Shown one piece after another: positions 6,474 to 35,497 of a stretch of 64,000 bases of DNA. Each line of letters begins with the position of its first letter. The first letter of the stretch is position 1. The DNA is from Labrenzia sp. OB1 (GTDB lineage Bacteria > Pseudomonadota > Alphaproteobacteria > Rhizobiales > Stappiaceae). The stretch spans positions 186,001 through 250,000 of the forward strand of contig NZ_JSEP01000002.1 in the NCBI RefSeq assembly GCF_001624695.1. The letters run 5' to 3'. The notes beneath the pieces are model-generated. The model worked only from the letters and a program-made list of their open reading frames with translations. It was not told the origin of the DNA and ran no database searches. A program made the translations under genes and the position numbers.

Positions 6474-6721
6474 ATCCCACTGCCACCCTCCTCAACGAGG
6501 TACATATCTCTCCGGATTTGAAAAACGCGCGCGCGAGCCGATAACCCGCGCTCTTTGCTGAGCCTGTTTCCGAGAGTTTTCAATCGGTTGCATTTACGCC
6601 CGACACTTGCCTGCCCGATGTCTTAGACAAGACCAGACTCTTTAATATACTTGATCATGGAGAAATCCATTATATTCGCGCAGCTTTCGGTTATTATTTC
6701 CGTTGCGCTCGGCTTAGATAA

Positions 6722-29125: not shown

Positions 29126-30538
29126 ATGGAGCGCTCTTCCCATGCTGATCGCTTCGCCGAAATGATCGGCGCGGCACATGTTCTGACCAACCCGGAAGAC
29201 CAGGCTCCGTTCCTGACCGAATGGCGAGATCTTTACCAGGGGGTCACGCCTCTGGTGCTGCGTCCGGGCAGCACCGAAGAGGTCAGCGCGGTGATGACAT
29301 ATGCCTGTCAGCATGGTTTGAAAATCGTGCCGCAAGGAGGCAACACCGGGTTGGTGGGCGGACAAATTCCGCAGGAATCCGGGGATGAGATCGTCTTGTC
29401 CCTCTCGCGTATGAACAAGATCCGATCCGTCGACCCGGCCGGTTTCACCATCACGGTGGAGGCCGGAGTGATCCTTGAGGCCCTGCAAAACGAAGCTGAA
29501 AAAGTCGACCGTCTGTTCCCTCTTGCCCTCGGTTCGCAGGGCTCCTGCCAGATCGGCGGCAACATTTCCACCAACGCCGGCGGCACCGCCGTACTGTCCT
29601 ACGGCAACACCCGGGACCTGGTCCTGGGCCTTGAAGTCGTGCTGCCGAACGGGGAGATCTGGAACGGTCTGAGGACCCTTCGCAAGGACAATACCGGTTA
29701 TGATTTGAAACAATTATTTATCGGCGGAGAGGGGACCCTGGGGATCATTACCGCCGCTGCGCTGAAGCTGTTTCCCAAGCCGAAGAAACTGGAAGCGGCG
29801 TTTGTCGGATTGCCCGATCCACAGGCCGCCCTCAAGCTCTTCTCACTGGCAAAGGCGCAGGCCGGACCGGTTCTGACCGGTTTCGAAATCATGCCGCGCA
29901 TCGGCCTGGAATTTTGCCTGCGACATCTGGAAGGCAGCCGCGATCCGCTGGAAAACGCTCATGACTGGTACATTCTCATGGAGCTCTCCAGCGCTTCGGA
30001 GGCGTTTCCGGTCCGCGACCTGCTGGAGAGCATTCTCGGCGAAGCCTTCGAAGAGGAACTGGTCGAAGACGCCGCTTTTTCACAGAACCTCTCCCAGGTG
30101 CAGGATTTCTGGCACATCCGCCACGGCATGTCGGAAGTTCAGAAGCCGGAAGGCGGTTCCATCAAGCATGACGTCTCCGTTCCCGTTGCCGCCATCCCGG
30201 ACTTTCTCGACAAGGCCATGGCGGCGGTCGAGAGTCTCGTGCCCGGCTGCAGGCCGGTGCCCTTCGGCCACATGGGCGACGGCAACATCCATTTCAATGT
30301 CAGCCAGCCGGTCGGCGCCGACAAGGAAAGCTATCTCGCAGGATGGGACGAGATGAACGCTGTCGTGCACGATATCGTTCGTGACTTCGGCGGCAGCATT
30401 TCCGCCGAACACGGCATCGGACGCCTGAAGCGCGATCTCCTGGCAGAAGTGAAGCCGGAAATTGAGCTGGATCTGATGCGGCGGATCAAATCCGCGTTCG
30501 ATCCCGGGAACCTTCTCAATCCGGACCGCGTCATCTGA
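29126..30538 (+). CDS. FAD-binding oxidoreductase, D-2-hydroxyglutarate/D-lactate dehydrogenase-like
   Basis: 470 aa of the GlcD/D2HGDH class. The N-terminal PCMH FAD-binding domain shows PGSTEEVSAVMTYACQHGLKIVPQGGNTGLVGGQIP and GSQGSCQIGGNISTNAGGTAVLSYGNTRDLVLGLEVVLPNG. The C-terminal cap contains the metal-binding GHMGDGNIHFNV and the terminal SAEHGIGRLK and SAFDPGNLLNPDRV. These sequences fit a D-2-hydroxyacid dehydrogenase feeding electrons to ETF. It is divergent from fabI with a 170-bp gap. Confidence 0.93.
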   Translation: MERSSHADRFAEMIGAAHVLTNPEDQAPFLTEWRDLYQGVTPLVLRPGSTEEVSAVMTYACQHGLKIVPQGGNTGLVGGQIPQESGDEIVLSLSRMNKIRSVDPAGFTITVEAGVILEALQNEAEKVDRLFPLALGSQGSCQIGGNISTNAGGTAVLSYGNTRDLVLGLEVVLPNGEIWNGLRTLRKDNTGYDLKQLFIGGEGTLGIITAAALKLFPKPKKLEAAFVGLPDPQAALKLFSLAKAQAGPVLTGFEIMPRIGLEFCLRHLEGSRDPLENAHDWYILMELSSASEAFPVRDLLESILGEAFEEELVEDAAFSQNLSQVQDFWHIRHGMSEVQKPEGGSIKHDVSVPVAAIPDFLDKAMAAVESLVPGCRPVPFGHMGDGNIHFNVSQPVGADKESYLAGWDEMNAVVHDIVRDFGGSISAEHGIGRLKRDLLAEVKPEIELDLMRRIKSAFDPGNLLNPDRVI

Positions 30539-31506
30539 AAGTATCCGCGCCGTGTCCCGCTGCTCTTGTCCTGATCTGACAATAAAGGACAGTAGTAGCA
30601 GACCCTCGAACAGGCTCCTGTTCACTGCAGTCTCTATTGCGCGTGTACTTGGAGAGCCTGACTTTCATCTACGGATCAGGCCGCCAGAAACGGATCGCTT
30701 TTCAAGACAGGGTTCGCAAGGCAGATCAATATGCACATTTGACGAGTTGCCGGAATTTCGGCAACCCTGTGGATAGCCTTAACGCAGTTGGCAAAACACG
30801 ACAGTGCAAAGATCACTTTCACAACTCCGGTCAGCATTCTGTTCTGAAATGAATTTTCGTGACAGGTCATACCGGTAAAAATTTTACCTCTTGGTCAAAT
30901 CAATCGAATCTTCCCGGAAAGTTTTCCCCACCTTCGCGATGCGCGGCAGGCCGGGTGGACAGGATTGAGTCGTTTTCAGGTCAAAACCATGTTCGCCAAG
31001 AGTTCGCCCCACTGAAACGTCTCTGTAAAAATTAACCTGCTTTTCAGCGAAGCATCGAAATCCAACTTGATGAAACTCACTATTTTTACAGCTGCCTTTT
31101 GAAAACCTTCAGAAAATTCTGCCGTGCGTTAATTTTTCGCTAATGATTTTCACCAGTCGAAAGTCAATGGTGAACGGACTACAGAAAATCAGCTCCCTCA
31201 GGACTTATGCCTCGTTCTGAAGTCGATGGAGCTTAAGATTTCCTATGTAAAAATCCACCTTTCGACCAGAAAACATCTACAAAAATTACTATGGGATCGA
31301 TCTATGACCTTATAAGAATAAGCTATTTGAAAAGATGGTAAATCAAAGGTTAATTTCGTCTGATAGGCGTTAAAAAGCCATCCCGGTCAAGAGACCTTCA
31401 AAGGGTCCGCAGGCCGGAAACAATAAACGGGCTGCGACGTGGCAATTGCGGCTCAAACAAAGTGCACAGAGAGGCGTTACGCGCCCACCCCATGAAGGAG
31501 GCCACA
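30539..31506. other. 968-bp AT-rich non-coding region upstream of dnaA; candidate replication origin or dnaA control region
   Basis: The longest gene-free stretch of the window, clearly richer in A and T than its surroundings from about 30840 to 31380. Visible elements: a DnaA-box-like 9-mer CTATCCACA on the minus strand (30768-30776, 8/9), a weaker TTTTCCCCA (30922-30930), two CcrM-type GANTC sites (30906, 30967), and three near-matches to the CtrA box TTAA-N7-TTAA (31032-31046, 31129-31143, 31339-31353, each 7/8). A hairpin GTTGCCG-GAATTT-CGGCAAC lies at 30746-30765. Strong clustered DnaA boxes are absent. Small frames in it look like chance. Confidence 0.5.
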
Positions 31507-32970
31507 ATGCAGCTTCAGGCTTTAGCCGATTCCGGTCCTTGGGACCGGGTCAAGAAAGAACTGAGGAACGAACTGGGAGAAGATATCTTCTCGAATTGGT
31601 TCGGCAGGGTCAATCACGAGGAAACGACAGGTGACGCGGTTCGCCTTTCCGTTCCAACCCGTTTTCTGAAGAACTGGATCCAGAGCAATTACGAAAAACA
31701 GCTCGTCGGTCTTTGGAAGCGGGAAAAAGACGGCATCAGCCGTATCGAACTTACCGTTCGCGGCGCCTTGCGCCCCCGCCTGATCGAAGGCCCTCAGGCC
31801 TCGAAAGCCATCACGGCCCGGCGGATCAGCGGCCGCCCCGCTCCCTTCAACAGCACTCCGCAGTTCAGTGCCGGATCAGGCATCGCCGCGATCCCCTGCC
31901 TTGCGGACACAGGCGAGGAGTCCGCGTCGGAATTTCTGAGCGGCGCCGCCCTGAACCCGAAACTGACTTTCGACACTTTCGCGGAAGGCACATCCAACAG
32001 TCTGGCCTGCGCCGCCGTACGCCAGATGGCGGCGGGCCATGAAGGCACGTTGAACATGCTTTATGTTCACTCGTCCACCGGCATCGGCAAAACCCATCTT
32101 TTGCAGGCAGCCGCGTGCCAGGCCAGAAAGACCGGCCGGCATGTCGCCTACCTGTCAGCGGAATTCTTCATGTACCATCTGGTTCCCGCTCTGCGGACAC
32201 CGGCTTTCCCGGTGCTGCGTCAGGCCATGAAGTCCATCGATCTGCTCCTGATCGACGATCTGCAATTTCTTCATGGCAAGCAGGCGCAAGAAGAATTCAG
32301 CAAGACGCTCGAGCTGCTGATGGAATTCCCGTCCCAGGTCATCATGGCGGCGGATCGCGCTCCGGAGGATCTTGAAACGCTTGGCACCGGCCTGTGCCAA
32401 TACATCCAGAAAGGTGAAGTCATCGGCATTCAGGCAACGGACTATGCCCTGCGCCTCGACATCGTCAACAAGCGCATCGCGGCGGCGCGCAAGACACACC
32501 CCGGCTTTTCGGTTCCGGACGAGGTCACGGACTATATCGCCCGCTATGTGATTGCGTCGGCCAGGGATCTGGAAGGCGCGCTGAACCGGCTCTTCGCGCA
32601 TAATCAGCTTTCCAGACAGCCGGTCACCCTCGAACTTGCCGAAAAGACCCTGCATGATCTGGTGCGGATCGGAGAACCCCGTTCGATCAAGGTTGAAGAA
32701 ATCCAGCAGGTCGTCTGCAAGCATTTCAGTGTCACCAAGGCGGATCTTCTGTCCTCCTGCCGGGCCCGGGTTCTGGTCCGACCGCGTCAGATCGCGATGT
32801 ATATCGCCAAGGTCATGACCGGCCGCTCGTTGCCGGAAATCGGCCGCCGCTTCGGCAACCGGGACCACACCACCGTTTTGCATGCGGTCCGCAAGATCGA
32901 CAGCATGGTGAAAACGGACAGGGCTCTTTCACAGGAAGTGGAACTGCTGAAGCGCCTGATCCAATCCTGA
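31507..32970 (+). CDS. dnaA: DnaA-family replication initiator, divergent: arginine finger lost
   Basis: 487 aa from ATG 31507, preceded by AAGGAGG with 5-nt spacing. Domain I is residues 1-75, a variable linker about 85-150, AAA+ domain about 150-350. Walker A is TGIGKTH (191-197), Walker B LLLIDD (246-251), sensor II SARDLEGALNRL (R353). The domain IV DNA-binding signature RPRQIAMY...SLPEIGRRFGNRDHTTVLHAVRKI is intact. In place of the usual ERVRSRLAGGL segment with the box VII arginine finger it reads GTGLCQYIQKGEVI (294-307). The first Walker A glycine is Ser. The usual rhizobial neighbour rpsT is missing and dnaN is not next to it. Either a divergent chromosomal DnaA or a second, specialised copy. 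Confidence 0.9.
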   Translation: MQLQALADSGPWDRVKKELRNELGEDIFSNWFGRVNHEETTGDAVRLSVPTRFLKNWIQSNYEKQLVGLWKREKDGISRIELTVRGALRPRLIEGPQASKAITARRISGRPAPFNSTPQFSAGSGIAAIPCLADTGEESASEFLSGAALNPKLTFDTFAEGTSNSLACAAVRQMAAGHEGTLNMLYVHSSTGIGKTHLLQAAACQARKTGRHVAYLSAEFFMYHLVPALRTPAFPVLRQAMKSIDLLLIDDLQFLHGKQAQEEFSKTLELLMEFPSQVIMAADRAPEDLETLGTGLCQYIQKGEVIGIQATDYALRLDIVNKRIAAARKTHPGFSVPDEVTDYIARYVIASARDLEGALNRLFAHNQLSRQPVTLELAEKTLHDLVRIGEPRSIKVEEIQQVVCKHFSVTKADLLSSCRARVLVRPRQIAMYIAKVMTGRSLPEIGRRFGNRDHTTVLHAVRKIDSMVKTDRALSQEVELLKRLIQS

Positions 32971-33033: not shown

Positions 33034-33313
33034 CTCTGTTCAGGTCCTGAGTATCCGTCCTCCCGGAACATCCTTTTCAATCGGAACCAAAAGCAGGCAC
33101 CGCGGCTTTCTTTTTGCGCCGTTGACAGCGCCCGCCCGTGTCCCTATGCCTGTTGCCGGTTTGAGGGAACCGGCCGCCCGCGGGCAAACAGCCTTGGTGA
33201 ATCCCTTCAGCGAAGTTTTCTTTCGCTGTGCTGAGCGACCTTCACAAGGGAGTGCAGGCTGATGGTAATGCGGGCTCCATTACTTTCGCCTGACGTTCTT
33301 GAAAGGTATTCCC

Positions 33314-33748
33314 ATGACGCTTCCCAGCGTTGACGCGCTCAAAACCCAGGCCAAACGCCTGCGAACAGCACTAACCGCCAAGGGGCAGGTGCTCTCGCAC
33401 AGCCAGGCGCTCGAACTGCTCTCCGCCCAATACGGCTACAAGGACTGGAACACCGCCTGCGCCGCGGCGTCCACGAGTGGAACGGCCCTGCCCTTCGCTG
33501 TCGGCGACCGGGTTTCCGGCATCTATATGCGGCAGGCCTTTACCGGCGAGATAAGAGGGCTGTCGCGGGTTGGCCAGTCAGGGCACCTCCGCGTGACCCT
33601 TCAGTTCGACAATCCCGTCGATGTTGTGACTTTCGAGAGTTTTTCCTCTCATCGCAGCCGGGTCACCTGCGTTGTTCGCGAGGACGGAATTGCGATCAAG
33701 AAAACCTCGGACGGCGAGCCTCATCTGAGAATGAAGCGCGCCGGCTGA
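33314..33748 (+). CDS. Small protein with Glyoxalase_8-type N-terminal domain
   Basis: 144 aa from ATG 33314 (AAAGG upstream; an ATG at 33299 is in frame). The first 50 residues (LKTQAKRLRTALTAKGQVLSHSQALELLSAQYGYKDWNTACAAA) match the glyoxalase-related domain found in many small alphaproteobacterial proteins and at the ends of larger ones. The second half is a beta-rich region (AVGDRVSGIYMRQAFTGEIRGLSRV ... LQFDNPVDVVTFESF). No catalytic motif. Function unknown. Confidence 0.75.
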   Translation: MTLPSVDALKTQAKRLRTALTAKGQVLSHSQALELLSAQYGYKDWNTACAAASTSGTALPFAVGDRVSGIYMRQAFTGEIRGLSRVGQSGHLRVTLQFDNPVDVVTFESFSSHRSRVTCVVREDGIAIKKTSDGEPHLRMKRAG

Positions 33749-33790: not shown

Positions 33791-34651
33791 TCACCGGCGC
33801 CGCGCCATGACAAGATGACCGGGCACGGGTTCGTTTTCCTCCAGCCGCACGACAATCGGTTCCATGGCGAGGATTTCGAACCCGGCCGCGTCGAGCGCCG
33901 TCCGGATGTAGACGTCCCCCTGAGCGAAGCGGTTTTTCGCGCCAACCATGTAGGGCCGCCCCTTCAGGGTTTCCTCCGGCAGCGTTTCGGTCGAAAAAGC
34001 CAGACAACCACCCGTCCGAAGACGGCCGTCAGCACCGGCCAGAAACGGTTCAACGGCGCCGAGATAAGGGAATACATCAGTGGCGGTAATCAGGTCCCAG
34101 CTCGGCTGCGAACCATCCTCTTCCTCGAATTCCTGCAGAAACTCCACAGCCTCGCCGACATACAGATCTTCATAGACCTGCCTGTCATAGGCCAGTTCGA
34201 CAATGCGTTCGGACAGGTCCAACCCCGTCCGATGAACGGTGCAATCCGCAAGGGCCATGCCGGTCAGCCCGGTGCCGCACCCCAGATCCAGCAGACGGGT
34301 GAACGGCCCGATCTCCAGACGGCGGATCAGGTCCCGCACCAGCAAGGGAACGCAATAGCCAAGCTCATCCACCAGAATGTCGTCGAAAACGTCCGCATGC
34401 TGATCGAAGAGCGTTGCGACATAGGCATCGGGCATTTTTTCCGGGGCATCCTGCACACCCATGGCCGCGAGACGGATGCTGACACCGCCGGTATCTACCG
34501 GATCGAGCGTCAACGCATGGCGATAGGCCTTTTCCGCCCCTTCAAGATCGCCGGCTTTCTGGAGATCAAGGCCGCGATTATAGGCCTCCGCCAATGCCTC
34601 GTTTTCTTCCGTGTCTTGCTCATGGGGGGCGAAGTTGTCGTTGTCGCTCAT
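33791..34651 (-). CDS. TPR-containing class I SAM-dependent methyltransferase
   Basis: 286 aa from ATG 34651, with AAGGA 7 nt upstream; the frame is open to 34711. The N-terminal 75 residues contain a tetratricopeptide-like pair (ALAEAYNRGLDLQKAGDLEGAEKAYRHALTLDP). The methyltransferase follows: LLDLGCGTGLTGMALAD, TGLDLSERIVELAYDR, DLITATDVFPYLGAVEPFL. This architecture matches the widespread 'putative TPR repeat methyltransferase' (COG4976) group. Substrate unknown. It is convergent with the preceding gene. Confidence 0.88.
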   Translation of the reverse strand: MSDNDNFAPHEQDTEENEALAEAYNRGLDLQKAGDLEGAEKAYRHALTLDPVDTGGVSIRLAAMGVQDAPEKMPDAYVATLFDQHADVFDDILVDELGYCVPLLVRDLIRRLEIGPFTRLLDLGCGTGLTGMALADCTVHRTGLDLSERIVELAYDRQVYEDLYVGEAVEFLQEFEEEDGSQPSWDLITATDVFPYLGAVEPFLAGADGRLRTGGCLAFSTETLPEETLKGRPYMVGAKNRFAQGDVYIRTALDAAGFEILAMEPIVVRLEENEPVPGHLVMARRR

Positions 34652-34738
34652 GTCGTCATCCTTACCGGCAGAGCTTTCCCCTACAGCGGCCGCGAGGCGA
34701 ATGCACGGCAATTCTGGCGGAGCGGCCGCGGTGTAGGC

Positions 34739-35497
34739 TCAGAACAGATCGAGCTGACTGTCATCGGGGGCCGGCTTTGCCGTCCGCTTCGCCCCGGTCT
34801 CTTTTCCGGCAACTGCCGGCCGGCCATCAAGATCCACGGGTTCGTGCAGATCCGCATGGTCGTTGGAAACCTTGTTGACCCGGCTGGACACAGGTGTCGC
34901 CACCAGAAAGCTGTCCTCTACCGGGAGAAGCAGTTTTTCGGCCTCTCTCCGGTCAACATGAGCGATGTCCAGCCAGGTGTCGAATACGTCGGGCTTGAGG
35001 ATCACCGGCATACGATCATGGATCTGTGACATCATCCGGTTCGCCCTGATCGTCAGAATTGCGCCGGTATCGATGTCACCGCCGTCAGGATCCGACCAGG
35101 TGTCCCACAGACCGGCAAAGGCCATGACCCCGCCGTCCGCCGGCCTGATCCAGAAAGGCTGCTTGCCTTCGGGTGTCCGCCGCCACTCGTAAAACCCGGA
35201 GGCCGGTACCAGGCAGCGGTGGTGGCGCATGGCCGAGCGAAAGGACGGTTTTTGCGATGCGGTTTCCGCTCTTGCGTTGATGAGCAGGCTGAAGCTTGAC
35301 GGATCCTTGCTCCAGGCAGGGATGAGCCCCCAACGGACAAGGTGGAACTGCCGTTTGCCGCCAAGGTTCTGACGGACGATCGCCAGCGGCTGGGTCGGGG
35401 CAATGTTGTAGCGCGGCGGAAAATTCGGCCGCTCATCATAGCCAAAAAAGGTCCGCACGGCGTCAGGGGGGGTGGTGAGCGCAAGCCGGCCGCACAT
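34739..35497 (-). CDS. SRAP domain protein (HMCES/YedK family)
   Basis: 252 aa. It begins MCGRLALT, so Cys2 becomes the N-terminal catalytic residue after Met removal. Other SRAP features: YNIAPTQPLAIVRQ, WGLIPAWSKDPS, INARAETASQKPSFRSAMRHHRCLVPASGFYEWRR, and the active-site His region MSQIHDRMPVILKPD. These proteins crosslink to abasic sites in single-stranded DNA and protect them. The C-terminal 50 residues are Lys/Pro-rich and not conserved. Confidence 0.94.
   Translation of the reverse strand: MCGRLALTTPPDAVRTFFGYDERPNFPPRYNIAPTQPLAIVRQNLGGKRQFHLVRWGLIPAWSKDPSSFSLLINARAETASQKPSFRSAMRHHRCLVPASGFYEWRRTPEGKQPFWIRPADGGVMAFAGLWDTWSDPDGGDIDTGAILTIRANRMMSQIHDRMPVILKPDVFDTWLDIAHVDRREAEKLLLPVEDSFLVATPVSSRVNKVSNDHADLHEPVDLDGRPAVAGKETGAKRTAKPAPDDSQLDLF

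Follow-up and report, generated by a model that had tools for sequence, protein, structure and literature searches.

A second, faster-evolving DnaA of Roseibium with an altered box VII and, in one small subclade, without the arginine finger

The arginine finger of one DnaA molecule senses the ATP that is bound to the next (PMC6727663, PMC6127211). The gene described here encodes a DnaA in which this arginine is absent, and it raises the question of whether such a protein is the chromosomal initiator, working differently, or a second DnaA, and what it would then do. It lies in a stretch of 64 kb, referred to as the window; the reading frame and its coordinates are correct on re-check, and an AGGAGG is located directly 5' of the ATG.

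31507..32970, plus strand: dnaA2, coding sequence of 487 residues, full-length DnaA with domains I-IV

DnaA2 passes the NCBIfam DnaA model TIGR00362 with 404.9 bits (cut-off 343.9), for which the other DnaA of the same genome, DnaA1, obtains 499.3 bits, and both proteins stay under the cut-off of the narrower models NF001154 and NF009087. The Pfam domains DnaA_N (PF11638), Bac_DnaA (PF00308) and Bac_DnaA_C (PF08299), being domains I, III and IV, are all found. When compared with solved structures by phmmer, the top match is the DnaA of 8btg (B. subtilis), and in the fold search with a structure model of DnaA2 (mean pLDDT 71.9, pTM 0.46) the entries 8btg, 1l8q and 3r8f rank first; the model only confirms the DnaA fold, the oligomer face being outside its reach. 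An identity as Hda, the protein of RIDA, was considered and rejected, as DnaA2 has domains I and IV and reaches 84.2 bits with TIGR03420 (cut-off 194.8). A scan of the whole 64-kb window at Rfam gathering thresholds gave 0 matches to RNA elements. It is practically certain that the gene is a dnaA paralogue, and the description in the earlier note as a DnaA homologue without arginine finger holds for the frame, the family and the finger position, which is Tyr299. Since the genome also encodes an intact DnaA1, the family match alone is no proof that DnaA2 functions as an initiator.

The two DnaA proteins of the window genome, which its relatives place in Roseibium, are both found with the PF00308 profile. 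DnaA1 (G000:C35:142632-144089) is 56% identical to DnaA2, and its gene has the usual context, with rpsT (TIGR00029) before it, separated by one small ORF (8248-8703 of L058), and dnaN, recF and gyrB after it. The suggestion of a second DnaA, made from the lack of rpsT and dnaN beside the window gene, is thereby confirmed: these genes flank the other dnaA. Among the matches listed (to about E = 8e-6), a second full-length dnaA occurs in 41 of the 45 Roseibium genomes and is missing from four (G014, G015, G017 and G024), so that the case of close relatives having only this one dnaA does not apply, most of them having two. Again among the matches listed, each of the 42 genomes from six further genera of the family has a single full-length dnaA (0/42 with dnaA2), which in G077 is split into two adjacent pieces. 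One DnaA each is also found in 24 genomes of other families (in G057 as two pieces of one frame), and 142 further alphaproteobacteria that were drawn gave one match in 138 cases, none in 4 and two in 0 (E <= 1e-60). Roseibium mostly carry a fast-evolving second DnaA beside a normal DnaA, on the same chromosome where this is visible.

One genome, G016, has a third DnaA (L057:5965-7386, G016:C1:4909982-4911373), which is 45% identical to P0001, has an intact finger and is located near genes for a thymidylate synthase, an adenylosuccinate-synthetase-like protein and an HNH nuclease. It perhaps belongs to an integrated phage or another island with its own DnaA; its matches in phage records are all below 60% identity. 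The numbering of contig C1 of the same assembly starts at dnaA2 (base 1), which was probably mistaken for the dnaA that usually marks the start.

The relationships were examined with an alignment of 86 rows, these being the window DnaA2 and 85 others. The canonical rows (n=44) comprise 28 Roseibium DnaA1 (from 28 of the 45 genus genomes) and 16 outgroup sequences, and the third DnaA of G016 is included and assigned to neither the DnaA1 nor the DnaA2 group. All 41 second copies group together in the tree of all rows (SH-aLRT 100), and the 39 that remain after removal of ten long-branch rows are still a single clade. This clade joins Roseibium DnaA1 in the pruned tree with a support of 86.8, which is not decisive. 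Both trees are quick searches without bootstrap, and the software issued a warning about long branches that meet. The locus is also shared, as the same genes flank dnaA2 in 32 of the 33 distinct loci with flanks, including those of copies that are only 50-59% identical.

29126..30538, plus strand: GlcD-like FAD-linked oxidase, left syntenic marker (profile matches and synteny)
33299..33748, plus strand: Glyoxalase_8 family protein, right neighbour, on a side that varies by subclade (Pfam and synteny)
33791..34711, minus strand: TPR/methyltransferase protein, right syntenic marker (profile matches and synteny)
34739..35497, minus strand: SRAP (HMCES/YedK-type) protein, right syntenic marker (Pfam and synteny)

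FabI is encoded on the same side of dnaA2 as the GlcD-like oxidase. The Glyoxalase_8 gene is found 3' of dnaA2 in the main group (L023-L044) and in G036, G013 and G031, and 5' of it in G026, G009, G029 and G021 (L053-L056); this switch of sides is a minor rearrangement within a locus that otherwise stays in place. The exception to the common locus is G090, whose second copy (L121, G090:C7:153000-166000) is located elsewhere and has Lys at the finger position. In other genera the oxidase and methyltransferase genes directly adjoin in G072 and G063 and are apart in G068, G065 and G080; in G106 a match to the methyltransferase was not found. A tblastn search for a DnaA remnant at five empty sites, those of the four species without dnaA2 and of G090, found none.

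Across 24 genomes, pairwise DnaA2 distances follow those of DnaA1 (r = 0.94; 0 of 2000 permutations as high) and are 2.7 times larger on average. All 41 dnaA2 genes are open full-length frames without inner stops. Among G000 (the window genome), G011, G020 and G035 the dN/dS values are 0.043-0.074 for DnaA2 and 0.016-0.026 for DnaA1, and nine other DnaA2 pairs give 0.020-0.141, so that all 13 DnaA2 pairs are well below 1. As judged from these sequence comparisons, dnaA2 is a paralogue of the chromosomal initiator gene that is inherited vertically and evolves faster, yet under purifying selection. Import from a plasmid or a phage was also considered and rejected: the 61 plasmid records and the 54 phage records with a match are all below 60% identity.

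The box VII region of DnaA2 reads GTGLCQYIQKGE. The earlier note had correctly recognised the segment that faces the ERxRSRLxxGL-type sequence, its numbering (294-307) being one too high.

32383..32424, plus strand: box VII segment GTGLCQYIQKGEVI, residues 293-306 (alignments with 8btg and the 85 DnaA rows)

In the alignment with 8btg, EDRLRSRFEWG of B. subtilis faces GTGLCQYIQKG of DnaA2. When counted on this alignment, B. subtilis R260 (E. coli R281) corresponds to G295 and R262 to C297, and the arginine finger (E. coli R285, B. subtilis R264) corresponds to Tyr299, the codon of which is at 32401-32403 on the plus strand. No arginine aligns with the finger position of the window protein. All three box VII positions are Arg in 44 of the 44 canonical rows. 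The finger itself is retained in 35 of 41 second copies (28/32 in the main group, 7/9 in the divergent group), which shows that its loss is not a trait of the whole paralogue; the residues found instead are Tyr in G000, G011 and G020, Val in G035, Lys in G090 and Leu in G094. These comprise the fingerless subclade of the window, with four genomes (G000, G011, G020 and G035), and two other fingerless copies (G090 and G094). The R281-equivalent arginine, present in 44/44 rows of the DnaA1 group, is kept in 2/32 main and 0/9 divergent copies and is thus missing in 39 of 41. The finger state needs three changes on the full tree and one on the pruned tree, which lacks G090 and G094; the R281-equivalent state needs three on both trees alike. 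A single early loss of the latter followed by two returns is one reading among several. By analogy with the E. coli and B. subtilis mutants discussed below, the ATP-dependent oligomerisation of DnaA2 may reasonably be expected to be impaired.

The ATPase core and the DNA-binding motif are, in agreement with the earlier note, intact.

32071..32094, plus strand: Walker A, residues 189-196, SSTGIGKT (DnaA alignment)
32242..32259, plus strand: Walker B, residues 246-251, LLLIDD (DnaA alignment)
32563..32565, plus strand: sensor II arginine R353 (DnaA alignment)
32758..32766, plus strand: domain IV basic loop, C418-R419-A420 (DnaA alignment)
32827..32898, plus strand: helix-turn-helix for DnaA-box recognition, residues 441-464 (no residue differs from DnaA1 of the window genome)

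The window protein retains K195, T196, D250, D251 and R353 as well as the helix-turn-helix, and the Walker A Lys, both Walker B Asp and the sensor II Arg are invariant in 41/41 DnaA2 sequences. The first P-loop position is indeed Ser (S189), as had been noticed, and this is no anomaly: it is Ala in 28/28 canonical Roseibium rows, and 14 of the 16 outgroup rows also lack a Gly (12 Ala, 2 Ser, 2 Gly). The argument from the P-loop is therefore dropped. Residues R202 and K222 of B. subtilis presumably bind ssDNA; the residue facing K222 is Lys in 41/41 DnaA2 and that facing R202 is Arg or Lys in 40/41. B. subtilis I190 also binds ssDNA (PMC10721633), and it faces a Val in 41/41 DnaA2 and in nearly all DnaA1 rows.

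Of all parts of DnaA2, domain IV is closest to DnaA1 (71% identity; 61% for domain I). Its basic loop is changed, position 418 being Arg in 44/44 DnaA1 and Cys in 40/41 DnaA2 (Trp in G090), and position 420 being Thr or Ser in DnaA1 and Ala in 39/41 DnaA2. R419 and A420 are taken here to be the equivalents of E. coli R399 and S400. In E. coli DnaA, R399 and S400 sit in the minor groove (PMC9638019). With the same recognition helix and a changed loop, DnaA2 likely binds DnaA boxes, as predicted from the residues, and the strength or preference of this binding may be shifted. As regards residue 418 (codon 32758-32760), a redox-sensitive contact is conceivable for a Cys that is located in a DNA-binding loop in 40/41 copies.

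The position of dnaA2 was compared with that of the likely origin. In other alphaproteobacteria hemE is a neighbour of the origin. The window genome is in 100 contigs, and G034 (one contig, 5.98 Mb) was used for the GC skew, sampled in 20 stretches of 20 kb. Its cumulative skew turns between 4.2 and 4.5 Mb, with hemE at 4.2075 Mb, dnaA1 at 4.63 Mb and dnaA2 at 5.69 Mb, about 1.5 Mb from hemE; the curve is noisy, the 0.3 Mb sample on the positive side being slightly negative and the sign flipping more than once within the 20 kb around hemE. In this one sampled genome dnaA2 is thus away from the skew minimum, at which the earlier note had considered that it might lie. In seven long-contig genomes, if their contigs are taken as whole chromosomes, dnaA2 is at 0.41-0.50 of the half contig from hemE, in five of them at about 0.50. 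In two hemE stretches the densest clusters of DnaA-box-like sites (<=2 mismatches) adjoin hemE, with 9 sites per 600 bp in G034 (mean 1.5) and 8 in the window genome (mean 1.6); the clusters are visible only at <=2 mismatches, no exact TTATCCACA being found near hemE. The dnaA2 locus has no such cluster, the best value in the window at <=2 mismatches being 4 per 600 bp (mean 0.96). It is likely that the hemE region contains the origin and that dnaA2 is far from it, on the main chromosome where this is visible: dnaA1 and dnaA2 are on one contig in the single-contig genomes G034, G091 and G096, which also speaks against the replicon-specific job that had been proposed.

The region 5' of dnaA2 is also conserved.

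31057..31506, plus strand: non-coding region 5' of dnaA2 with several conserved blocks (21 aligned sequences)
31129..31143, plus strand: CtrA-box-like site TTAATTTTTCGCTAA (TTAA-N7-CTAA), its place conserved in close orthologues
31339..31353, plus strand: second, weaker CtrA-box-like site TAAATCAAAGGTTAA, within a conserved block

The CtrA consensus is TTAA-N7-TTAA (PMC9437464), and 6 of the 22 close orthologues have this strict form. A relaxed form, TTAA-N7-(C/T)TAA, picked after viewing the alignment of orthologues that are not independent, is found within 450 bp 5' of dnaA2 in 23/23 cases (the window and 22 loci) and in 0/26 of the dnaA1 upstream regions compared, which come from 26 of the 45 genomes of the genus. 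The 22 loci (288,496 bp) contain 24 relaxed sites, of which 23 fall within these 450 bp; L042 has its site at the nearer position in place of the distal one. Ten more distant dnaA2 genes include eight with a site at <=1 mismatch from the strict form, in varied places, and two without (G026 and G009), and at this threshold a site occurs 5' of dnaA1 in 1/26 of the genus and 0/6 of other genera. The window contains another relaxed site at 6714, which makes two in total against 0.36 expected, a number reached in 8 of 100 shuffles. The genome has a CtrA-like gene (85% identity to a CtrA query). On the basis of these motifs, the dnaA2 promoter may couple the amount of DnaA2 to CtrA. A palindrome-like ATGTAAA-TTTACAT block is also present 5' of dnaA2 in many orthologues (L023-L044), being degenerate in the window, and is possibly another operator.

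The most likely mechanism, with a probability that we put at roughly 0.43, is that DnaA2 binds to DnaA boxes, is poor at extending ATP-DnaA assemblies and in this way tunes DnaA1. DnaA2 would bind the boxes that it has in common with DnaA1 and would join DnaA1 assemblies through its ATP side, accepting the finger of DnaA1. Its own finger side could not engage the next ATP-DnaA, and the growth of the assembly would stop there. Being able to take a neighbour's finger and not to offer its own, DnaA2 would cap or shorten ATP-DnaA assemblies at oriC and at DnaA-regulated promoters; the net effect on DnaA1 would be tuning, most likely restraint, and the dnaA2 promoter may tie the level of DnaA2 to CtrA.

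Capping is favoured by the combination of an altered box VII with retained ATPase and DNA-binding residues, by the single clade and locus, the co-divergence and the low dN/dS, by the CtrA-like site 5' of dnaA2 in a genome with a CtrA-like gene, and by the defects of two mutants. In B. subtilis R264A strand separation fails, the fingers facing the ssDNA side (PMC10721633), and E. coli R281A forms stable assemblies on oriC only poorly (PMC6127211). The latter mutant still unwinds the origin, which weakens the mechanism, as does the lack of a DnaA-box cluster at the dnaA2 locus, and the changes from R to C at 418 and from T to A at 420 could mean that the DNA preference is altered and no longer shared with DnaA1. 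A fingerless DnaA need not inhibit, because the lethality of E. coli DnaA(R285A) can be suppressed by an oriC of ATP-indifferent sites (PMC6727663) and strand separation in a DnaA reaction is reported to proceed at similar rates with ADP and with ATP (PMC8287927). This ADP result and the history of the R281 equivalent, which is not simple, make capping slightly less likely. Finger loss cannot be the founding function of DnaA2, as most copies keep the Arg, and the gene is dispensable somewhere, being absent from four species. A more specific version, in which DnaA2 is a CtrA-linked anti-initiator and chain terminator of the ATP-DnaA filament, with the R281 contact broken first and the finger removed later in one lineage, is unlikely; if it is true, replication would be restrained by a paralogue of the initiator itself.

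Other explanations are to be weighed against capping. DnaA2 could be mainly a transcription factor at DnaA-box-like sites without a role at oriC, which we consider somewhat doubtful. Box VII would then be free to drift, oligomerisation not being needed, with constraint remaining on domain IV and the AAA+ core. This agrees with domain IV being the best conserved part, with the paralogue-specific changes of the basic loop and with the reuse of the DnaA-type DNA-binding part in GafA and a small DnaA-like partner (PMC9638019); however, a plain regulator would not need the Walker and sensor II residues that are invariant in all copies, and domain I is retained as well. It is rather improbable that DnaA2 is a back-up or stress initiator acting in mixed oligomers, in which DnaA1 supplies the finger and its loss from DnaA2 is nearly neutral. 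Such a role is consistent with the finger Arg in 35/41 copies, with the fingerless subclade having dN/dS values that show no relaxed selection when compared with the nine other pairs, and with the rescue of E. coli R285A by origin design (PMC6727663), but the absence of the R281 equivalent from 39/41 copies makes the altered interface the rule and not an accident.

The remaining two explanations have very little probability. As a complete DnaA-family protein, DnaA2 might drive a second replicon or a second chromosomal origin; against this, the two genes share a contig in three genomes, the box density near dnaA2 (maximum 4 per 600 bp) is below that beside hemE (9 and 8), the turning point of the sampled G034 skew is close to hemE, at a distance of about 1.5 Mb from dnaA2, and no plasmid record matches at >= 60% identity. 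A decaying duplicate heading for loss would explain the 2.7-fold faster evolution and the absence from 4/45 species, but hardly the intact full-length frames of all 41 copies, the dN/dS well below 1 in 13/13 pairs and the conserved upstream region.

When compared with canonical DnaA, for which DnaA1 of the same genome is the reference, DnaA2 has in common the four-domain layout, Walker A and B, sensor II, the helix-turn-helix and 56% identity, and it differs in lacking the finger and the R281 equivalent, in its basic loop, in having its own locus and upstream region and in its accessory distribution. Hda, which lacks domains I and IV, drives the hydrolysis of DnaA-ATP with its finger. Hda/HdaA is, like DnaA2, an AAA+ relative of DnaA and acts on DnaA, and DnaA2 matches TIGR03420 below the cut-off, but DnaA2 has domains I and IV and no finger; a separate Hda-like gene is on contig C57 of the genome, also below the TIGR03420 cut-off. 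Chlamydiales likewise have two dnaA genes, neither of which is linked to the GC-skew minimum in Waddlia (PMC2878342); this lineage is unrelated to Roseibium, and the likeness concerns copy number and position. Acidaminococcus fermentans has two dnaA genes in tandem on one chromosome, and its pair is in the rpmH-dnaN-recF-gyrB cluster by the predicted oriC (PMC4403523), whereas Roseibium dnaA2 is >1 Mb from hemE. GafA and its partner show that the DnaA-type helix-turn-helix is reused in Alphaproteobacteria; GafA resembles DnaA in the DNA-binding part only (PMC9638019), whereas DnaA2 is a full-length DnaA. In the available parts of the literature on DnaA in Labrenzia/Roseibium and on dnaA duplicates, which included few subscription journals, no account of a second dnaA in this genus was found.

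The other alphaproteobacteria that were sampled have one DnaA, and the finger Arg is present in every canonical row aligned; Roseibium keeps a second DnaA, under selection, in which the contact face is dismantled. Relatives with the finger, without the finger and without the gene form a natural series for the roles of the finger and of R281 in vivo, and this series also bears on a possible role of a DnaA paralogue in setting replication timing.
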